This document shows, piece after piece, positions 2,983-36,388 of a DNA stretch of 64,000 bases. The notes under the pieces are model-generated. The model was not told where the DNA came from and did no database searches. It was given only the letters and a program-made list of their open reading frames with translations. The stretch covers positions 589,501 to 653,500 of the forward strand of contig JAFKAC010000033.1 in assembly GCA_025766275.1 (NCBI GenBank), in the 5' to 3' direction. The first letter of the stretch is position 1. Each line of letters opens with the position of its first letter. A program made the position numbers and the translations under genes. The stretch comes from Lactarius indigo. Lineage: Eukaryota; Basidiomycota; Agaricomycetes; Russulales; Russulaceae.

Positions 2983-4431
2983 ATGACCGACACCCCAGTA
3001 TTCGACACCACCTTCGTCAACATCCTCAGCAACCCCCAACTCGAAGCCGCCCTCGAACGAGGGATTGTCACCCTCGACCTCACCAGCATTCCCCGTCTAT
3101 CACCACCACCGTCTCCCCAACACGTTACCATTGCCACCCCCATCCCTATCGAACGAGAACCCGGGGAACTTACCCCGTCAACACCAGAGGAAGGGCAATA
3201 CTCTCCAACACCACCTCCTCAGCAACAGTCGACTCCTCCACCAGAACCACGACCTCAATCACCACCATCTTCCCCATCGTCCACGCCACCTCCACCTCTA
3301 GAACCGTTTACCCCGGTCCGCGTCCACACCCCCATTGACTACGACCGACCCGATTCCCCTCCTAACGACACAGATGATCCAGGCGCCCCATTCTTTCCAA
3401 ACCTTCCTGGCACCCCCAAGTATTACCCATTACAGATCCCACTACCAGACGGTGGATCTAACCCAGCGAAGTATATTTACTATCGCAAGGGATTCACCGA
3501 AGTAGTGGGGACAATGGGCATGGGACAACCTCACTATGGAGAGGAGGTTTACCTCTCGTCACTTCGGCCAAACGTCTCGGCGCCCCCCTTCACAGCGGAA
3601 CAACTGCAGTTCTTTGACCCTCACGACATCCGCGCCTGTGCTCTGGATGAAACACTCATAGAGCTTAACTCACCTCGCCTCACGGCTGAGATCACTAGGC
3701 TAAGGACGGGACTCCTGGCGCTCAAAGAACTCGACGAGAAGTACGAAAAGTTGGAGGAGGACACGCGCAAGCTACGAGCGGAGCGGCTCACGGTCGACCT
3801 GATGCTAGCCAGTACCAAGAGGCGCCTTCAGTACGCAGGAGCGCTGGCTACCATCGGCAACGAATATGCGCGTATGACGGCCCTACCAGCCCCACTTCGC
3901 CACTCCCGTTACGCCATCCCATTCTCCCCACGACGCGGAGGACCATTAGAGTTTCCCCGCCTCGCTGACAAACCCCACCGCCGACGCTGCTACCACTGCA
4001 ACAGCCCCCATCATATCGTACGCGACTGTCCCACCAGACCACGGCCCACCTGTCGACACTGCCAAAGCCAGGAACACCAATCCTATCGATGCATATTCCG
4101 TCGTGCTGGTATGGTCGAAGAAGTGATCACGACCCATCAGGCAGACGAACGCATACGGCAAGCAGTGGCTGCGGAGGCCACCACTTCCTTTACCGTCCCT
4201 GAACCACCAACGATCGCGGCCCACACCAAAGGAAGGTGGTGCGGGCGGTGCTTTCGCACCGATGCCAATCACGACGAGATCAGGTGCCCACAGTACGAAA
4301 TGTGTCGCAAGTGCGGCAAACGCGGACCCTTCCTCTTCCTCAAAACGCATTACTGTCGACTCGACGTTTCTCCGTGGCCGGAGAATGACCTCGATGCTGA
4401 CATCTATGACCTCATAGACCCGGAATCTTGA
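2983..4431 (+). CDS. Element A third ORF after integrase: proline-rich protein with tandem zinc knuckles
   Basis: An intact ORF of about 482 residues starting at ATG 2983, 41 nt after the pol stop and in a different frame. N-terminal third: a conserved start (TPVFDTTFVN) and a Pro/Ser/Thr-rich stretch. Middle: a folded-looking block (YPLQIPLPDGG, KYIYYRKGF, GEEVYLSSLRPNV) followed by RLTAEITRLRTG and a charged likely coiled coil. C-terminus: CYHCNSPHHIVRDC (C-x2-C-x4-H-x4-C), a second similar finger CRHCQSQEHQSYRC, then two more Cys/His clusters. It lies where env would lie in a retrovirus, but I see no signal peptide or membrane segment. Element D has the same ORF and families 2 and 3 have a related region fused to pol. 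Function unknown; the knuckles suggest nucleic-acid binding. Confidence 0.85.
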   Translation: MTDTPVFDTTFVNILSNPQLEAALERGIVTLDLTSIPRLSPPPSPQHVTIATPIPIEREPGELTPSTPEEGQYSPTPPPQQQSTPPPEPRPQSPPSSPSSTPPPPLEPFTPVRVHTPIDYDRPDSPPNDTDDPGAPFFPNLPGTPKYYPLQIPLPDGGSNPAKYIYYRKGFTEVVGTMGMGQPHYGEEVYLSSLRPNVSAPPFTAEQLQFFDPHDIRACALDETLIELNSPRLTAEITRLRTGLLALKELDEKYEKLEEDTRKLRAERLTVDLMLASTKRRLQYAGALATIGNEYARMTALPAPLRHSRYAIPFSPRRGGPLEFPRLADKPHRRRCYHCNSPHHIVRDCPTRPRPTCRHCQSQEHQSYRCIFRRAGMVEEVITTHQADERIRQAVAAEATTSFTVPEPPTIAAHTKGRWCGRCFRTDANHDEIRCPQYEMCRKCGKRGPFLFLKTHYCRLDVSPWPENDLDADIYDLIDPES

Positions 4432-4465: not shown

Positions 4466-5033
4466 TGTTACGATTCTCTTGGACTCGTCTCTTTTCTTAC
4501 TATTATTCCCTTCCCACACTATATGAGCCCTGTACGACTACGCGGACGTTACGATTACCCGGTTTCCATCACGCGCCTTGCTTATCGACGTTCTCTTCTG
4601 ATAAAGCTTGACATGTGCTAGTTTCCGACCTGTTCCCTCTCACGCGCGACCCCGCGTGATTCTCCATTATCCTCGATATAGCCTTGCCTTGTTCCCTATA
4701 TGTCCCCTCCTTTCTTCCCCGGATTGGCGATGGCGCCATCTATTTGTAATGACCATACAGTGTGATCTCTATTTAACCCTAGTCATACCTAGCTTGTACG
4801 GTAGACTAGACTTCTTGTGTAAAACTACACTCGTCTATGCGGAGTCTCCTCGTTCCCCGACCCTTGTCTTCGCTAGACCTTCGAGTCTTAGCTCCCCTCT
4901 ATAGTCCAAGTGACGTGCGTCCTTGTGACTCTTGTGCATCATTCCTACTGAAGTCGAGCCTTTGAGCTTTGACTACCGAGCGACAGACTGACTTAGTACA
5001 GGTCGTACTCAACGCCCCTGTAGTGGCGTTACA
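4466..5033 (+). repeat. 3' LTR of element A (family 1)
   Basis: A 568-bp LTR starting TGTTACG and ending GTTACA, homologous to the two LTRs of element D. It holds a TATTTAA box at 4770-4776 and, 33 nt after the first base of that box, the 11-mer AGACTAGACTT (4803-4813). That 11-mer is the complement of the primer-binding site of element D, so it is the predicted start of the RNA. The matching 5' LTR lies before the window, so the target duplication cannot be checked here. Confidence 0.9.
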
Positions 5034-6758: not shown

Positions 6759-7200
6759 TGTAACGCTGTCACAGCGTTAGCCCGACTTGAGCTTGGTAAA
6801 GGTGACTTTGGTGACTTAGCTGATCACGCCCCGAGGCGTATGGCACGAAGGCTTTCCTAGACGTTCGAAGACGCTAATATAACAGCAGTCCTCTATACCA
6901 GTGATAGAGGCGAGAGAGTATAGAGACAAAGAAGTGACGATTGAAGAAGACCAAGATGGCGTATCTTGGTCTTTCGCAGCTACCTTAAATACAAGAAAAG
7001 CAGGCTTTCAAGCGCTGCTATGAGTCACAGTAATGTAGCGTCCGACGTATCGCGTAAGTAGCGCAATCCTAATACTACTACTACTTGTACTAGGATCGAG
7101 TCATCCTTCAACTTCTAACACCGATCGTAAACTCCAAGTCCGTGACTAATCTACCTTACCGCCGTAGCCACAACCGGTACAGTAAGGGTCAACCGTAACA
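6759..7200 (-). repeat. 3' LTR of element B
   Basis: 442 bp, ends TG...CA in element sense. It contains a perfect 11-bp inverted repeat around a 5-bp loop (6947-6973), which gives the predicted RNA start on its second arm. Near identical to 13956-14397. Confidence 0.97.
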
Positions 7201-7230: not shown

Positions 7231-10200
7231 TCACCGGAAGTCCCGTGCCGTCCAAGTCGACTGCTCCTCGCTAATCCTCTCGAACACATTGGCCCTCTCC
7301 AGTCAGTAAATGCAGTCCCTCTTGTCGTCCCTAGCCGACAAGCGCATGGCCTGGAGCTGGCGGATGCAGGCGGCAAGCCTCTCTTCTTCGTATGCGGCCG
7401 CCCGATAACACGTCACCTCCGCAGTCAGGGATTCATCCCCAATGCGGTGCAGTGCGCGATCGGTGATCTTGTCGGAGGCGAGGATGACTAAATCCTCATG
7501 GGCGATGAAGGCGCGTCCCGCAGCCGATAGCATCGGATGGGCGTAGAGAGGTTTGCCGTAGAGATGGGGGGAACCGGGAATAAGCCCCAACACAAAGGGA
7601 TTCGCACCTCCTACGATCTGAATGTGACTGGCGTTTCTTTCTACGCCATCAGGCCCGGTGATGGGGAAGTGAATGTAATGGGGCTGTCGATTCGCCCTGA
7701 ACCCTTCAGGCGCAAGGACCTGCGTGGGGTCGTCATCGTGCGTAATGGGGGTGTGAAGTGCGATGCTGGGCAATCGCACACGTCCTCGAGACATGGCGGT
7801 TCCGTCGGTGTGAACGAGCCATGGGGTGATTCGGGAATTAGTAGGGTGGCTGTGCGTTCGAAGGAGGGGGTGTCTGACCGGGTAGTAATCCTCGTCGTCA
7901 GCGTAAGCCTCGTCATTAGGGAGCGCTGCCTGCGCTGCCGCAACTCGCTCAACCTCCTCTGTGCTAAGCGCAGTTGTTCGTCGGCCCACTCCTTCGCCAT
8001 CCTCCGCCAGTCCTCCGCTGCTTCTAACTCCTGTTGGGTCTTCGAGGGGGCAGTCGACAGGGAGAATTCCCCTAGTGCCGATGAGGTCGTCACCTGGGGG
8101 GATGATGGCGACGGGTTCTCGATTACCATTGTCATCTTGGAAGATGTGAGGGACGGCATGCTGCTGCTCGTCGTTGGGCTGGCGAGTCGGGTTGGGGAAC
8201 CTCTGTAGGACACTAGCCCACTCTTGAGCGGTGATATGCCCGGCTCGCATGTTTGCAGGTGTGTACAGAGTGAGCTGGACCTGTTGAACCACGGTTTCTT
8301 CGTCGTCTTCGATGAGGTTGGCGGTGTCTTGTGCGACTTGGTCGAGGAGGATCGCCGTGGTGACATGTCTAAGAGGAGAGGTGGGCATAGAAGTACGAGA
8401 GGATCGGAGGTGGGAGTGATACTCTCCCTGGTTATCCTCGGACTGGCTTTTAAGGTATTGCACACCTGTTCGGCCCGCTTGGTACTTCTCTATCGCTTCT
8501 GGGGCAAACACGTCGTCCTTGTCGACCCACTGGTTCTCCGAGTCTGGATAGCCCTTCCATTTGATGAGGTATTGCAGTTTCCGTCTTCTGCTGAAGTGCC
8601 GAGAGTCCAGAACGGCCTCAACTTCGTACTCCTCTTCACCTTCCACGAGATCCGGTGGTGGTCTTGGGAAATTTTCGCTGTGGAAGGTTGTATTTTTGTA
8701 CGGTGTGAGAAGATCAATATGGAACACTGGATGGATGCTCCACTGCGTGGGAAGTTCGAGACGATAATTGTATGGGGACATCACCTGCACTATCTTAAAC
8801 GGTCCGTGGCGTCGCGCCGCTAGTTTTGCCGTGGGTTGATTGGTTCGGAGGTGTTTTCCTTCTAGCCATACTTGGTCACCGATCTGATAACGCAGGGTGT
8901 TTTTGTGCCGGACCCAGTTATCTTGTGCCTTCTTGATAAGGTCCTGAGCAAGTTGACACGCTTCCTTCAGCTGCGTTAGTCTGGTGATCACATTAGGAAT
9001 TGGGGATGGCTTATCCGTCCAATCAGCCGTTGGGTTGTATCCCATCAGAAGCATGAACGGCGATTGTTTCGTATGCTCGTGGGGCCAGTTGTTGTGAGCG
9101 AATTCTGCTATGGGGAGATACTCCGCCCAATTATCTTGACGCTCATTAGCCCAAAAACGTAGATATTGTTCGAGCCATTGATTCGTTCGCTCAGACTGCC
9201 CATCGGTGTGTGGGTGATAGGCCATGGAAATGTTTTGTTGGATGCCCAGTATGCGGCACACTTCTCGTGTGAACTTGGAAGTAAATTGGGGGTCGCGGTC
9301 ACTGATGATTTTACGCGGTAGCCCGAATCGTCTGAACACGTGATTGACATACAAGATTGCGGTTCCCTCCGCCGTAATTTCTTCATTACATGGGATGAAC
9401 ACGGATGCCTTACTGCAGTCGTGGTCGGTGACAGTCAGAATACTGTCATAGGACTGCGAGGTTGGTAGTTTGGTAATGAAGTCTAGGGCGATGGTGTGAA
9501 ACGGGGGAGCATCCGTGGTGGCCGTAATCGGGTGTAGTGGGGCGCGAGTGGGTCTGGTGTTAACTTTGTTTCGCTGGCAGTCAGCGCACCCCATGACATA
9601 CTCATACACATCTCAGCGAATGCTTGGCCACCAATGATGTCGTTCCACAATTCGTTGAGTTCGGCTTATTCCCGGATGTCCGTGTACTGGTGGGTCGTGA
9701 TGATCTTGTATGATAGCCCGATAGGTCGCCATGGGCCCCGTGACCACTAGTCGCCCATCCTTGTACCATTCTCCCTCTATCTTTTTGAGGCGATGAGTGT
9801 CAACCCAGGTTTTGATCACGGCTGGATCTTGTCGTCGTCTCGGTGGTTGCATCATCGGATGGATTTCCAGGGTGCGTGCAACATTAGCGGCTCATACGAA
9901 CACTTCTGGAGGTAAGACAACCACACCTTGGTTATCTTCTTCTCCTTGGTCGTAATCTGGTCGTCTTGATAGCGCGTCTGCTCTGCTGTTGTTTTTCCCT
10001 TTGATATGGTGGATCTCAAAATCGTACTCCATCAATTCCAGCACTTCCCAGGCGACCCTTCGACTGATCTTCTGCAGCGTCTTCCAATACTGCAGGTTTA
10101 AATGGTCCGAGAATATTTTGATCTTGTGTGGGGACCCTGCGAGTAAGGGGCACCAGTGCCGAAGGGCTTTTACAATGGCGAGAAGTTCTAAGTCGTAAAT

Positions 10201-11957
10201 GTCGTAGTTGCGCTCTGCTTCACTCAGCGTCACTGAGTAGTATCCTATTGGGTGCTTGCGCCTGTCATGTTTCTTTTGTAAGAGGACTGCGCCTACCGCG
10301 AATCCGGAGGCGTCGACCTCCAATTCAAATTGCTCTTGCAGATTGGGGTGTGCCAACACTGGCTCTTCGGTAACGAGGCGTTTGAGTGTTTTAAACGCCC
10401 GGTCTTCTTCTTCTGTCCACCGCCATTCAGTATCTTTTCTTGTGAGCCGATTGAGCGGCCGGGCGTGTGTGGCGAAACCTCGGATGAATAAGCGGTAAAA
10501 GTTGCAGAAACCTAGAAAAGAGCGTACGTCCCTAACTTTCGTTGGCGTGGGCCAGTCCTTGATACCTCAAACTTTTACCGGGTCCATGCGAGTTACCCCC
10601 TTTTCAAGGATTACCCCCAGGTAATCCATCCAAGGTTGGTGGAAGAGGCATTTCTCGAGTTTGAAGTATAGGTCATGTTCCTGGGCGACGCGAAGGACAT
10701 CCGTGACCGCAGCAATGTGGTCCATGGAGGTGTGGCCCTCTCGCGTTGCAATCCCGATGTCGTCCATGTAAACTCGAATAATGGTGCCGCGGAGTTCATG
10801 TTTTGCTATGGTATCCCGATAAATGTGGTTCATCATCATTTGGAAGGTCGCCAGTGAATTTGTGAGACCAAAGAACATGACCGTTGGCTCAAAGAGACCA
10901 AACTTGGTTTTAAAGGCCGCTTTTTCCTGATCGCCATCGCGAATGCGGACGTTGTTGTACCCCCAGTGGATGTCGAGCTTGGTGTAAATATGCACGTTGC
11001 TGAGGTCATAAATAAGATCTTGAATAAGGGGTAGGGGGTATTGATTGTGTATGGTATGAGAATTGATCACCCGATAATCCTGTACCGGGCGTAGTTTCCC
11101 ATCCTTCTTTTTAATGAAGAAGAAGGATGATGCGTACAGGGAAATGGAGGGACATAGATATCCCTGCTTAAGTTTTTCGTCGAGAAATTCTTTGAGTTTG
11201 CTCTCTTCTTCCTGCATCAGCGGGTATATTTTGCAGTCTATTGCTGACGGGGCGTTTGGTTTAAAGTCAATGGCGTGGTCCCATGGTCTGGCGGGAGGAA
11301 AGCGCTGGGATGCTTCTTCGCTGAAGAGCGTCTGGAACGCTTGATATACTGCAGGCAGTTCTACAGGTGGTTCATCTCCCTTGGCTTGAATCGCCAGTTC
11401 TGTGGACGTCGTGGCACGTAGACATGCTTCTTCTAAATCTGCGACTATTTCTTCCTTTCGTTCTTCAGTGAGCGTGGTGGCAATAACGGTATGGTGGTGA
11501 TGACTATCCTGCGTACTAATCACCACTGGCATGACTTCTTCGTGTATCACCGCGTCGTGCCAGTTGATAGTTGGCTCGTAGGTCGCCAACCATGGGTATC
11601 CTAATACGATTTCTTCATCTCCAAGATCCGTTACAAGGAATCGCATTGTCCTGTGGTATCCTTTGGTATATACATCAAGGTCGGTGAAGTGAGTAATGGA
11701 CCCAGCTTTGTTTTCCGTTTGATCGATATTCCAAATCTTTCTCGGCTGGGCTAATGACTGTGTGCCAATACCCATCTTCTTTATGAATTTTGGATGTATA
11801 AAGTTGTCGGTGGCTCCTGAGTCCACCAGTGCCCTTATGTCGGCCATTCGGTAATTCGTGCATATTGAGACTGGAATTCGAAGGGAACGAAAGCGCGTCA
11901 TGATTACAGAATTACAATTTAAAGCCCTCACCCAGGCCGATGGGTTCAGGCGCTCCG
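7231..11957 (-). pseudogene. Element B pol: protease, RT, RNase H, integrase, chromodomain and post-integrase domain
   Basis: One continuous frame, entered by a -1 shift from gag near 11957-11964 and ending at TGA 7233-7231. Protease has the active-site LVDSGATDNFI (about 11815-11845). RT has YMDD in VYMDDIGIA; RNase H has EVDASGFAVGAVL; integrase has CADCQRNK, LDFITKLP, SDRDPQF and GQSERTNQW; a chromodomain (LIKWKGYPDSENQW) follows. A further stretch of about 400 residues continues without a break: a Pro/Ser-poor acidic linker, then HIQIVGG, GSPHLYGKPLYAHP and ESLTAEVTCYRAA with a likely coiled coil at the end. Internal stops, all TGA: 10569-10567, 9894-9892, 9615-9613 and 7305-7303. Element C lacks the last of these, showing that the protein normally runs on to 7231. 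Confidence 0.93.
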
Positions 11958-13934
11958 AAAATCCTCTTTCCCCCATAAATCCTGTAGTATCAGGTCCTTT
12001 ACTTCGTCCGGCGCGTTGGTGACCCCGGTAAGCCACTCTTTGGCCCGTTCTTCGGCAGTTTTGCTGGTTGAAGCGGCTTGTATTTGCGCTGGCGGGGTCT
12101 CTTGTGTATAATAGTCGGTCCCTGCTGCTCGGACAGAGGGCCCTGCATTCTGCGGTTGCCATTGTCGCGGCTGTCTGGGATGGGGGCAGTTTCGTGACAG
12201 ATGACCGGGAGCGTTGCAGTTATAACACAACACTGTCCTTAGGTCTCGTCGTAACCCGCCTCTTCCTCGCCCCCTTGCTCCTGGTCCTCCTCTCGGTGGG
12301 AATGGGGGGAGGCCTGTATAGGGCGGCTTACTGTAGTCGATTTCTTCCGACCCTGCTAACCTTGCCTTTGTTCAGTTGGCGGAGGTATCCATGGCCCATG
12401 GATTTGCGAGATTTTGGGGAATGGTCCATCCGGCGTTTCCCGTTTTCTTTGGCTTAGCGTCCTTGTATTCATCCACCCGAGCTCGGATGTGGATGTAGTT
12501 GCGTTGTCATCGGAGCGTCGCCCGTTTCCACTCGTCGAATGTTTCCGGCTCATCCAGATCGTATGTTTTTTCGTATAGCTTTTTGGGCAGTCCCTTGGTG
12601 AACAAGTCGATAGTCTGGGGGTCGTTGAGGCGATATCCTGCTTTCCTGGCGGCTTCTTCGAATTCATTGACGTTTTTGTCAATATCTCCATTGACCATTT
12701 TGAGTCCTTTCCTTAGAAGCGCTTGAGCTTGCTCTCGTTCAAGGGTATTAACGAACCTTTGGTTAAAACCCTCTGCTACTGCGTTCCACAGGTCCCTCGT
12801 GTGTTGATCTATTCCTCGCTGTATCTGCCGGTTGAGCCATTTGAGGTACGAGAGTACCCATTCACTAACAGTTACCCCCTTGATGTAGGATAGAAATAGA
12901 AGGCATCGTCGATAGTTGTTGCGCATAACCGGGGTGTCGAGATTCATTCCCCAGTACACGTGCCATTGCATGAGGAATGAGTCCACCTTAGTACAATCTC
13001 CATCGAAAATAGTGGGAGGTTCACCGGTCAGTTTTTCGTGTCCATGTCCTCCTCCTCCTCCTGCTGGCGGACCTCCACCACCGCCTCCACCTGGGGGTCC
13101 TCCTTCTGGTGGGTTATTTGGGAGATCTGGTGGGTTTCCTCCTCCTCCGAGGCGTCGGGGAAAATCCCCTCCTGGCGGTCCTCCCCATCCTGGTGGAGGG
13201 TCGAGTGGTAGTCCTTGTCTTTGCCCTTCTCCTGATGGGGGGTCTCCTTGATCGGGTCCGATAGCCCGAAAAATTGCTGCATCATCTGCAGTCATTCGAT
13301 GCCCCGTTTTGGGATTAATGGGCATGAGGTGTCGCTGTGATTCTTGTCTGATGGCTTCGGCTGCTTCTCGCGCCGCCTGTTCTCTTATGCTCATGATTTC
13401 TTCAGCCGTCATGGTGGTGGTTGCCATTTCTGCTGCTGGTGATCGTACGTGAATGACTTCTGGCTGGTCTGAGATATGTAGAGACTCAGCTCGTTGAATA
13501 GTATATTGCTCAATAGGCCCGATGCTTGCGGGTCGATTTTCTTCACTTTGTTCTTCTTCTTCGGTTTCTTCGCTGACCGCTTCTCCGGTAGAGTGTTCTC
13601 GTATCTGGCCGTCGATGGGCCCCCAATCGGCTCGTGAATTGAGTTCGCGCACGTCTATGTCGCACTGATATTGCCTTCCTGCTGGTCTAATGACGTCCCA
13701 CCGGTGGTCTACTGGGTTCCACGTAATCTCTACCCAACACAAGTGGTCGAAATTGAACTCAACAGGTCTGAACCTTGTAGGTCCGTTGAACTCTACGAAG
13801 TATCCGGTTTCGTCTCCTCAGTCTCTCCACCTTGCTGCTCCTAGGAATCGGGTTGGTACGTTGCGATCCCCTCTTCGGTCTAAATAATAAGGACGGAAGT
13901 TCGTCCACTGATCTCTGGTGTTGACAGTCGCCAC
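11946..13934 (-). pseudogene. Element B gag with CCHC zinc knuckle
   Basis: Capsid-type Gag of about 660 codons. It reads from a GTG at 13934, just after the 5' LTR, to TGA at 11948-11946, in one frame interrupted by three TGA codons (13820-13818, 12509-12507, 12374-12372). The middle has a Gly/Pro-rich low-complexity segment (about 13028-13260). The Retrotrans_gag-like core follows (about 12900-12520), then the zinc knuckle CYNCNAPGHLSRNC. No in-frame ATG stands near the expected start; the first conserved codon, GTGGC, is matched by GTGGC at the same place in element D. The last codons overlap pol. Confidence 0.85.
11957..11964 (-). other. Predicted -1 frameshift site at the gag-pol junction of element B
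   Basis: GGATTTTC on the minus strand. Gag reads GAT TTT C.. and stops 9-12 nt later; pol needs TTT TC., one base back. The same GATTTTC stands at the junction of element D (34187-34194), and in element E the site is GGGTTTTC, whose GGGTTTT is a textbook X-XXY-YYZ heptamer. The shift is inferred from the frames, not demonstrated. Confidence 0.6.
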
Positions 13935-13942
13935 AATGAATA

Positions 13943-13953
13943 ATCTTGGTCTT
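13943..13953 (-). other. Self-complementary primer-binding site of element B
   Basis: Two bases after the 5' LTR the minus strand reads AAGACCAAGAT. It is the exact complement of ATCTTGGTCTT at 14154-14144 in the LTR, the predicted first 11 nt of the element RNA. No tRNA 3' end is needed to explain it. Confidence 0.75.
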
Positions 13954-13955
13954 AA

Positions 13956-14397
13956 TGTAACGCTGTCACAGCGTTAGCCCGACTTGAGCTTGGTAAAGGC
14001 GACTTTGGTGACTTAGCTGATCACGCCCCGAGGCGTATGGCACGAAGGCTTTCCTAGACGTTCGAAGACGCTAATATAACAGCAGTCCTCTATACCAGTG
14101 ATAGAGGCGAGAGAGTATAGAGACAAAGAAGTGACGATTGAAGAAGACCAAGATGGCGTATCTTGGTCTTTCGCAGCTACCTTAAATACAAGAAAAGCAG
14201 GCTTTCAAGCGCTGCTATGAGTCACAGTAATGTAGCGTCCGACGTATCGCGTAAGTAGCGCAATCCTAATACTACTACTACTTGTACTAGGATCGAGTCA
14301 TCCTTCAACTTCTAACACCGATCATAAACTCCAAGTCCGTGACTAATCTACCTTACCGCCGTAGCCACAACCGGTACAGTAAGGGTCAACCGTAACA
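13956..14397 (-). repeat. 5' LTR of element B
   Basis: 442 bp. The predicted core promoter on the minus strand is TATTTAAG (14188-14181), with an RNA start at about 14154. The hairpin arms are 14144-14154 and 14160-14170. It differs from the 3' LTR at two CpG sites only. Confidence 0.97.
14154..14188 (-). promoter_or_regulatory. Core promoter and predicted RNA start in the 5' LTR of element B
   Basis: The TATA-like box begins at 14188 and the self-priming sequence begins at 14154, 34 nt downstream. The same 33-34 nt spacing recurs in families 1 and 3 although the sequences differ. Confidence 0.6.
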
Positions 14398-16792: not shown

Positions 16793-17134
16793 TGTCACGG
16801 TACCAGCGGACCGTCCATGACGTGATCGTGTTCGAAGACTTGTGTTTTGCACAAGTAAAAGGATGCTGACTTGGAGCACTCAGAGAGCACGCAAGTGAGA
16901 GGGTAGACAACTGGATTCAAGACGAAGAGTAGACAAGGTATGTACTACTCTGTGGCTACATCTTTATACTCGTACATACTATGGGTTTTCGGGACTGTTT
17001 TCTGGTATTTACGGGCTCCTAATGAGCTGGCAAGGTACAACAGATGTGGCAGAGACAGCTGGCAAGAAGTTAGTGCGTTGGCAATCGATTCGACGTGGCA
17101 GGGCCCATGACCGTGATGTCACGTGGGCATGACA
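16793..17134 (-). repeat. 3' LTR of element F
   Basis: 342 bp, starts TGTCA and ends TGACA in both orientations. Confidence 0.95.
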
Positions 17135-23569: not shown

Positions 23570-23579
23570 GTCTACTCTT
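23570..23579 (-). other. Self-complementary primer-binding site of element F
   Basis: One base after the 5' LTR the minus strand reads AAGAGTAGAC, complement of GTCTACTCTT, which lies in the LTR (23722-23713) 34 nt after the start of a TATAAAG box (23756-23750). Ten paired bases. Confidence 0.7.
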
Positions 23580-23580
23580 A

Positions 23581-23922
23581 TGTCACGGTACCAGCAGACC
23601 GTCCGTGACATGATCATGTTCAAAGACTTGTGTTTTGCACAAGTAAAAGGATGCTGACTTGGAGCACTCAGAGAGCACGCAAGTGAGAGGGTAGACAACT
23701 GGATTCAAGACGAAGAGTAGACAAGGTATGTACTACTCTGTGGCTACATCTTTATACTCGTACATACTATGGGTTTTCGGGACTGTTTTCTGGTATTTAC
23801 GGGCTCCTAATGAGCTGGCAAGGTACAACAGATGTGGCAGAGACAGCTGGCAAGAAGTTAGTGCGTTGGCAATCGATTCGACGTGGCAGGGCCCGTGACC
23901 GTGATGTCACGTGGGCGTGACA
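23581..23922 (-). repeat. 5' LTR of element F
   Basis: 342 bp. The seven differences from the other LTR cluster in the first 45 and last 30 bp, and every one is CG against TG or CA. Confidence 0.95.
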
Positions 23923-28077: not shown

Positions 28078-28658
28078 TGTAATGCCACTACAGGGGCGTT
28101 AGATATGACCTGTATCAAGTCAGTTGATTGAACGGTAGTACAAGCTCAAAGGCTTGACTTCAGAGAGAATGGTGCACAAGGATCACAAGGACACAAGTCA
28201 CTTGGATCGTAGAGGAGAGCTAAGATGCGAAGGTCTAGCGAAGTCGAGGGGTCGTGAGACGAAGGGGACACAAGGGTGCTCCGTCTTAGACGAGTGTAGT
28301 ATTACACAAGAAGTCTAGTCTACCGTACAAGCTAGGTAGTACTAGTCTTAAATATGTGTCGGACTGTATGGCCAAGGCAAACAGATGGCGCCATCGCCAG
28401 TCCTGGAACAAAAGGGTAGACATAAGAAGAACAAAGGGAACACATAATGGGAACAAAGGTGAATCACGTGGGGTCGCGCATGAGTGGAAGTATCACAGAA
28501 ACTAGCACATGTCAAGCTTTATCACAAGGGAACGTCGATAAGCAAAGTGCACGATTGGAACCAGGTAATCGTAAAGTCCGCGTAATCATACAGGGCTTGT
28601 ACAGTATTGGGAAAGGAATAGTGATATGTGAAAGAACGAGTCCGAGAAAATCGTAACA
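28078..28658 (-). repeat. 3' LTR of element D
   Basis: 581 bp, TGTTACG...GTTACA in element sense (start altered to TGTAATG on +). Followed on + by the polypurine tract TTACCCCCCGTC. Confidence 0.93.
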
Positions 28659-35794: not shown

Positions 35795-35805
35795 AGACTA
35801 GACTT
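35795..35805 (-). other. Self-complementary primer-binding site of element D
   Basis: Two bases after the 5' LTR the minus strand reads AAGTCTAGTCT, complement of AGACTAGACTT at 36051-36041 in the LTR. That site lies 33 nt after the TATTTAAG box (36084-36077). Confidence 0.75.
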
Positions 35806-35807
35806 AA

Positions 35808-36388
35808 TGTAACGCCACTACAGGGGCGTTAGATACGACCTGTATCAAGTCAGTCAATTGAATGGTAGTACAAGCTCAAATGCTTGACTTCAGAGAGAAT
35901 GGTGCACAAGGATCACAAGGACACAAGTCACTTGGATCATAGAGGAGGGCTAAGATGCGAAGGTCTAGCGAAGTCGAGGGGTCGCGAGATGAAGGGAACA
36001 CAAGGGTGCTCTGTCTTAGACGAGTGTAGTATTACACAAGAAGTCTAGTCTACCATACAAGCTAGGTAGTACTAGTCTTAAATACGTGTCAGACTGTATG
36101 GCCAAGGCAAACAGATGGCGCCATCGCCGGTCCTGGAAAAAAAGGGTAGACATAAGAAGAACAAAGGGAACACATAATGGGAACAAAGGCAAATCACGCG
36201 GGGTTGCGCGTGAGTGGAAGTATCACAGAAACTAGCACATGTCAAGCTTTATCACAAGGGAACGTCGATAAGCAAAGTGCGCAATAGGAACTGGGTAATT
36301 GTAAAGTCCACGTAATCGTACAGGGCTCATACAGTATCAGGAAAGGAATAGTGATATGTGAAAGAACAAGTCCGAGAAAATCGTAACA
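35808..36388 (-). repeat. 5' LTR of element D
   Basis: 581 bp. It carries the predicted promoter and RNA start (36084 to 36051). Confidence 0.93.

Follow-up and report, generated by a model that had tools for sequence, protein, structure and literature searches.

Chromodomain Ty3/gypsy elements of Lactarius indigo carry LTR complements at their primer-binding sites, consistent with Tf1-like self-priming

With what do the chromodomain Ty3/gypsy retrotransposons of the mushroom Lactarius indigo, a basidiomycete of the Russulaceae, prime their reverse transcription? The question is raised by three families (B, D and F) and a further element (A) within a window of 64,000 nucleotides (nt) of contig JAFKAC010000033.1 (positions 589,501 to 653,500); the assembly around the window comprises 90.3 Mb in 291 contigs. 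An initial annotation had noted that the sequence just behind the 5' long terminal repeat (LTR) of each family, where the primer-binding site (PBS) is expected, complements a site in the same element's LTR at a fixed distance from a TATA-like box, and had read this as self-priming of the kind known from Tf1 of fission yeast. As judged from sequence, these elements very probably do prime reverse transcription with their own RNA in a Tf1-like manner. This reading is supported by seven primer/PBS pairs, by matched changes in two single copies, by the shortness of all matches to 21 host transfer RNAs (tRNAs), and by the presence of a chromodomain together with a Tf2-type SH3 domain.

Primer/PBS pairs in the window and across the genome

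The complement behind the 5' LTR is exact in all three families, extending over 11 nt in B, 11 nt in D and 10 nt in F, and all coordinates check. The distance from the first base of the TATA-like box to primer base 1 is 34 nt in B and F and 33 nt in D and A, with element A repeating the D layout (TATTTA at 4770, primer at 4803). The sequences differ between the families and the geometry is the same; the leader of each family matches the LTRs of the other two over 6 nt at most. The features, in window positions, are as follows.

13956-14397, minus strand: family B 5' LTR, 442 nt, from LTR-pair comparison
6759-7200, minus strand: family B 3' LTR, paired with the 5' LTR
14183-14188, minus strand: family B TATA-like box TATTTA, 34 nt ahead of primer base 1
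14160-14170, minus strand: family B upstream inverted-repeat arm, in the unique 3' (U3) part of the LTR, in PBS sense
14144-14154, minus strand: family B proposed self-primer, the proposed first 11 nt of the RNA
13943-13953, minus strand: family B PBS, exact complement of the primer
7303-13817, minus strand: family B coding region, several open frames
23581-23922, minus strand: family F 5' LTR, 342 nt, from LTR-pair comparison
16793-17134, minus strand: family F 3' LTR, paired with the 5' LTR
23713-23722, minus strand: family F proposed self-primer, base 1 lying 34 nt past the start of TATAAA (23756)
23733-23739, minus strand: family F upstream arm, 7 nt complementary to the primer
23570-23579, minus strand: family F PBS, exact complement of the primer
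35808-36388, minus strand: family D 5' LTR, 581 nt, from LTR-pair comparison
28078-28658, minus strand: family D 3' LTR, paired with the 5' LTR
36041-36051, minus strand: family D proposed self-primer, base 1 lying 33 nt past the start of TATTTA (36084)
36065-36079, minus strand: family D upstream arm, an imperfect, bulged complement of the primer region
35795-35805, minus strand: family D PBS, exact complement of the primer
4466-5033, plus strand: D-type 3' LTR of element A, containing TATTTA (4770) and the primer sequence (4803-4813)

The two LTRs of family B differ at 2 of 442 nt and are flanked by a 5-bp target duplication, CCATC; those of family F differ at 7 of 342 nt and are flanked by CACAG, also 5 bp. 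The family D pair differs at 35 of 581 nt, and no target duplication was visible at the element ends. Transitions account for 41 of the 44 differences, as expected from deamination or from mutation resembling repeat-induced point mutation (RIP).

Chance was assessed by comparing the first 25 nt after each LTR with the LTR itself and with 2000 dinucleotide shuffles of it. The observed self-complement length was reached by 3 shuffles in B, 4 in F and 5 in D, geometry being ignored in this count, and a TATA-like motif lies 31-36 nt upstream at only 18 of the 1245 positions of the pooled B, D and F LTRs. Among distinct junctions selected to have no more than one mismatch with the primer (28 for B, 32 for D, 26 for F), the primer columns are 94-100% constant. 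The F set fell from 27 to 26 when L038, a chance match without an F-family promoter, was excluded; nothing was removed from B or D. One D-like primer, AGACTCGACTT in L049, has no PBS in the fetched stretch; it was not taken as a family and was kept in the D counts.

The layout was then sought beyond the window in 32 stretches, 20 upstream of gag matches and 12 upstream of SH3_Tf2-1 matches, hand-picked from two lists of 150 to span different classes. A fixed rule was applied, comprising a 10-nt complement, a TATA-like box 31-36 nt upstream and CA directly before the PBS; TACTTAA was added to its list of TATA motifs only once family H was known. The layout is present in 18 of the 32 stretches (9 of 20 chosen by gag, 9 of 12 chosen by SH3) and in none of 30 shuffled sets. 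Seven pairs resulted, in each of which the primer has its exact complement after the LTR:

Family B: ATCTTGGTCTT
Family D: AGACTAGACTT
Family F: GTCTACTCTT(A)
Family G: AACTTGTCCT
Family H: AAGCTCGACTTA
Family I: TAGCTTTGGCTT
Family J: AGACTTGGCTT

Five of the 18 stretches carry H; D, F and I account for three each, G for two, and B and J for one each. When the 18-nt contexts were compared seven by seven, a family's own pair shared 10-12 nt and foreign pairs no more than 7, and in all seven pairs the PBS begins 1-2 nt past the LTR end. The closest pairs, I and J, have two differences over 11 shared nt, and these are matched on both sides. Family J is supported by one stretch, and its PBS recurs among the genome-wide places listed. 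Family G, with a match of 10 nt only, is the weakest pair. A search for families with a one-T gap and another PBS found fewer places (16) than its reversed control (29), and yielded no further family.

In both copies of family G that were read (L089 and L090), a second copy of the primer lies 67 nt downstream in the LTR, within a longer direct repeat. The G gag class (G000:C257:207582 and 85 others) has 86 matches of similar score among those listed, mostly open frames of about 496 amino acids (aa), and many pol frames of 1298 aa were seen alongside them. The many near-equal and mostly intact gag matches suggest that family G has spread recently.

PBS-type places were counted genome-wide by three pattern searches, one for each type of LTR end, with reversed patterns as controls. 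The B-type pattern gave 212 places against 3 in the control, the second type 169 (satellite copies included) against 5, and the third 368 against 10. Among 100 listed B-pattern places, 94 carry exact AAGACCAAGAT, three a D-type block and three a one-base variant; the bases following the block vary, giving the match a sharp edge. The pattern GGCGTAACATAAGGCCTTTCG was rejected as a new family: it belongs to a tandem satellite that mimics an LTR end, and L127 is without a matching self-complementary LTR site. The satellite was seen in L127, the copy that was read, and in G000 contigs C22, C89, C104 and C167.

Six copies with an altered PBS, out of those seen in the pattern listings, were read. 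In two of them the primer is altered to match by one base pair: L121 (B type) has the PBS AAGGCCAAGAT and its own primer ATCTTGGCCTT, and L123 (I type) has the PBS AAGCCGAAGCTA and its own primer TAGCTTCGGCTT.

Self-priming and the competing explanations

By analogy with Tf1, the source for each of the following steps, transcription would begin at the primer site in the LTR, behind the TATA-like box, and the first 10-12 nt of the RNA would fold back onto the PBS. The RNase H of the element would cut behind these nucleotides, and the freed 3' end would prime minus-strand DNA. In the standard pathway, plus-strand strong-stop synthesis would then copy the RNA primer into a new PBS. As the primer would be recopied into the PBS in each cycle, the match would renew itself, and a change in the primer would carry over to the PBS. 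This self-renewal tempers the proposal that the pairing is kept by selection: the match is indeed kept in seven differing pairs, but selection is not its sole possible cause, recopying being an alternative.

Several observations weigh against self-priming or reduce what the evidence can carry. The layout is absent on the expected strand in 14 of the 32 stretches. In one of these, L113, it was called on the opposite strand: an F-type LTR end, PBS and primer lie opposite in strand to the SH3 match, and the part adjoining the F-type sequence is 93% like the J stretch L117, so L113 appears to hold an F-type element inserted in reverse orientation, a case of nested elements. In the other stretches without the layout, the LTR may have been missed or priming may proceed otherwise. 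For G, H, I and J, the end of the LTR was placed by the CA preceding the PBS, not by a second LTR. The surroundings of the family D primer are almost as constant as the primer itself, so D contributes little to the case for special constraint. Three of the six altered PBS copies, L122 (D type) and the near-identical L124 and L125 (B type), retain an unaltered primer, and L126 has no primer within the 306 nt fetched; the paired changes that the initial annotation had suggested looking for are thus present in two copies, absent from three and undecided in one. Finally, in a crude test against letter shuffles, one of the two duplexes that join PBS flanks to the LTR in the three-duplex ‘pretzel’ described for related elements fell below 0.05 only in H of the seven families.

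The most serious competitor holds that pairing of the RNA 5' end with the PBS serves another purpose, such as packaging, dimer formation or translation control, priming being a separate matter. Pairing by itself shows neither cleavage nor extension, and the leaders do join primer and PBS readily: when 11 leaders were folded from primer base 1 to 60 nt beyond the PBS, in nine the minimum-energy fold joined 10 or more nt of the primer to the PBS, and forcing the pairing cost about 1 kcal/mol in the other two (window family B and F109). However, the complement lies at the very place required of a PBS, 1-2 nt past the LTR end, it is 10-12 nt long and sharply edged in B, and a tRNA-type primer site was sought in the seven pairs and not found. 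We consider this explanation improbable.

Even less probable is priming by a host tRNA, whole or as a half of the kind that some copia elements use, with the LTR match otherwise caused. Priming by a tRNA 3' end calls for a PBS beginning with TGG, and TGG is absent within 8 nt of the LTR from all seven PBS. The expectation that no host tRNA would match over 12 nt or more was borne out: the longest match of any PBS was 8 nt in a set of 21 host tRNAs with introns kept in, which spans Lys and 12 further amino-acid types (all but Met, Phe, Trp, Tyr, Pro, His and Asp). The family F PBS has 7 nt in common with host tRNA-Lys, and the PBS of the fungal copia element FunCo1 is reported to match an internal part of tRNA-Lys, a Drosophila gene having been used (PMC5445492; this and all other papers are cited from excerpts). 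Against this stand the 10-12 nt matches to the element's own LTR at fixed geometry, and the matched changes in single copies, which tRNA priming leaves unexplained.

That the matches reflect descent or chance, without function, has next to no likelihood: the elements are related in pol and all PBS but those of G and H start with AAG, but the sequences diverge while the match is kept, the layout did not recur at a similar rate in shuffled stretches as this explanation predicts, and the two copies with paired changes contradict its prediction that altered PBS never have matched primers.

Self-priming with the RNA 5' end remains the preferred reading of these pairs. At least seven primer versions in one mushroom genome amount to a natural mutation series, in which the primer–PBS match can be traced across families and single copies, with both sides changed in two copies.

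An inverted repeat joining U3 to the primer

In family B, the primer is perfectly complementary over 11 bp to a second arm in U3, from which a short loop parts it; the initial annotation had not noted this inverted repeat. An exact complement of at least 8 nt is kept in the 28 distinct junctions, while the stretch from TATA to the arm varies. In L121, the upstream arm carries a change where primer and PBS carry theirs, as well as a second one that still allows G-U pairing. An exact-match test was clear for B (median 12 nt against 4.2 in letter shuffles) and moderate for F (7 nt against 4.3, mean tail 0.027), where the arm is 6-8 nt long and shifts in position among copies; D, G, H, I and J were not above shuffles.

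Folding of single junctions gave a similarly uneven picture. The z scores were -3.9 and -2.7 in B-type junctions (the latter in the diverged L120) and -4.8 in G, where a long stem flanks the primer. D-type junctions, with their bulged form, scored -1.7 and -2.3, and F-type junctions, at -1.7 and -1.3, were not far under shuffles. There was little signal in H (-2.2 and -1.6), a short stem in J (-1.9), and in I (0.5) the inverted repeat is absent. The repeat was therefore rejected as a general feature, and, being strong only in some families, it is not a general part of self-priming.

What the repeat does where it is present is a matter for tentative proposals. It could act as DNA, a palindrome to which a transcription factor binds at the start site, as opposed to an RNA hairpin; in B, D and F the repeat falls downstream of TATA and ahead of the predicted start, and that of family B is a long dyad. 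On the other hand, the repeat sequence differs among families while complementarity stays in B and F, and in L121 the arm has changed along with the primer, its second change permitting a G-U pair. On balance, the palindrome is a plausible explanation that falls somewhat short of an even chance.

Self-primed elements would also face a problem in that the primer sequence occurs twice in the RNA, at the 5' end and in the 3' repeat (R) region. The U3 repeat lies beside the 3' copy only, and it is conceivable, though rather unlikely, that it hides this copy in B and F, and by a variant of the arrangement in G, leaving the 5' copy for the PBS. If so, the repeat would be a cis device that tracks the primer as the primer evolves, and it would explain how self-primed elements avoid the wrong primer copy. 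Judged by titles and the starts of abstracts, none of the open-licence papers searched describes these elements or the U3 repeat. To our knowledge, sequestering of the 3' primer copy by a U3 repeat, which would be a second cis device of self-priming, is undescribed.

Coding content and comparison with known elements

The chromodomain (PF00385) and SH3_Tf2-1 (PF24626) were both matched in A, B, D and F. By domain matches, the frames of family B encode gag, protease-reverse transcriptase, RNase H, and an integrase with SH3_Tf2-1 and chromodomain; RNase H domains were thus matched in B, and F, D and A gave matches to the integrase part, SH3 and chromodomain. Families B, D and F each have a zinc knuckle, CX2CX4HX4C, 1.3-1.7 kb downstream of the 5' LTR. 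The traits of the Tf1/sushi group found here are a chromodomain at the integrase C-terminus, an LTR-adjacent PBS complementary to the proposed RNA 5' end, and the lack of a tRNA-type PBS in the seven pairs when compared with the 21 tRNAs.

Three further features of the window were recorded. In D and F, zinc-knuckle motifs are also present far behind pol. Behind the chromodomain, element A has a separate third open frame of 482 aa (2983-4431, plus strand), which is most similar to two Lactarius indigo proteins annotated as hypothetical (88% and 87% identity over 67% and 63% of its length), followed by five matches at 38-40%; no Pfam family was matched. This one protein points to a Lactarius or a near relative as the probable host. 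Of the open frames at positions 43000-64000, ten (150-323 aa) were compared with Pfam and none matched, and this part looks gene-poor or intron-rich.

Self-priming is shared by several elements according to the title of a 1997 paper by Lin and Levin. Members of the Tf1/sushi group, found in fungi, vertebrates and non-seed plants, commonly self-prime (PMC10085805); the same source describes the ‘pretzel’, consisting of the primer–PBS duplex and two duplexes between PBS flanks and LTR. The 11 nt of Tf1 are given, and Tcn1 of Cryptococcus is proposed to self-prime, in PMC7175516; the PBS of Tj1 is complementary to its RNA 5' end (PMC4600332), and the plant Tcn1 clade and the copia element TAR are predicted to self-prime (PMC6317226). 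For SM-Tcn1, evidence for neither tRNA priming nor self-priming was found (PMC2864245), and an LTR complement was not found in the Skipper chromoviruses (PMC5006619), as far as the excerpts go; both count against self-priming being seen in every relative. As self-priming is common in Tf1/sushi and already proposed for a basidiomycete element, the mechanism is not new here, and its occurrence in a fungal group other than the fission yeasts is not a first.

The elements can be set beside several known systems, on the strength of the excerpts. The fungal GalEa copia elements likewise have a short inverted repeat near the priming region, the Conserved Hairpin Site, and no tRNA PBS (PMC5445492), but they belong to copia, their hairpin follows the 5' LTR and does not span U3/R, and an LTR complement was not found there. 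Two systems are likened by description only: marY1 of Tricholoma matsutake, also from a basidiomycete and named in the chromovirus tree of PMC10085805, and Tcn1 of Cryptococcus neoformans, also a basidiomycete chromovirus with proposed self-priming. Tj1 of Schizosaccharomyces japonicus and Tosmo/Tcry1 of other fission yeasts likewise have a PBS complementary to the RNA 5' end; their hosts differ, and ‘pretzel’ duplexes are described for them, whereas the one flanking duplex compared with shuffles here passes only in H. The Gag of the fission yeast elements is reported to lack a zinc knuckle (PMC10085805), whereas B, D and F have CX2CX4HX4C. Tf1 of Schizosaccharomyces pombe, itself of the Tf1/sushi group, has a different host and a match of 11 nt, against 10, 11 or 12 nt here, and its RNase H cut after base 11 is a reported one, whereas the corresponding cut here is a predicted one. 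The mechanism of self-priming is itself already established, and the Lactarius indigo elements are additional members of a well-studied group.
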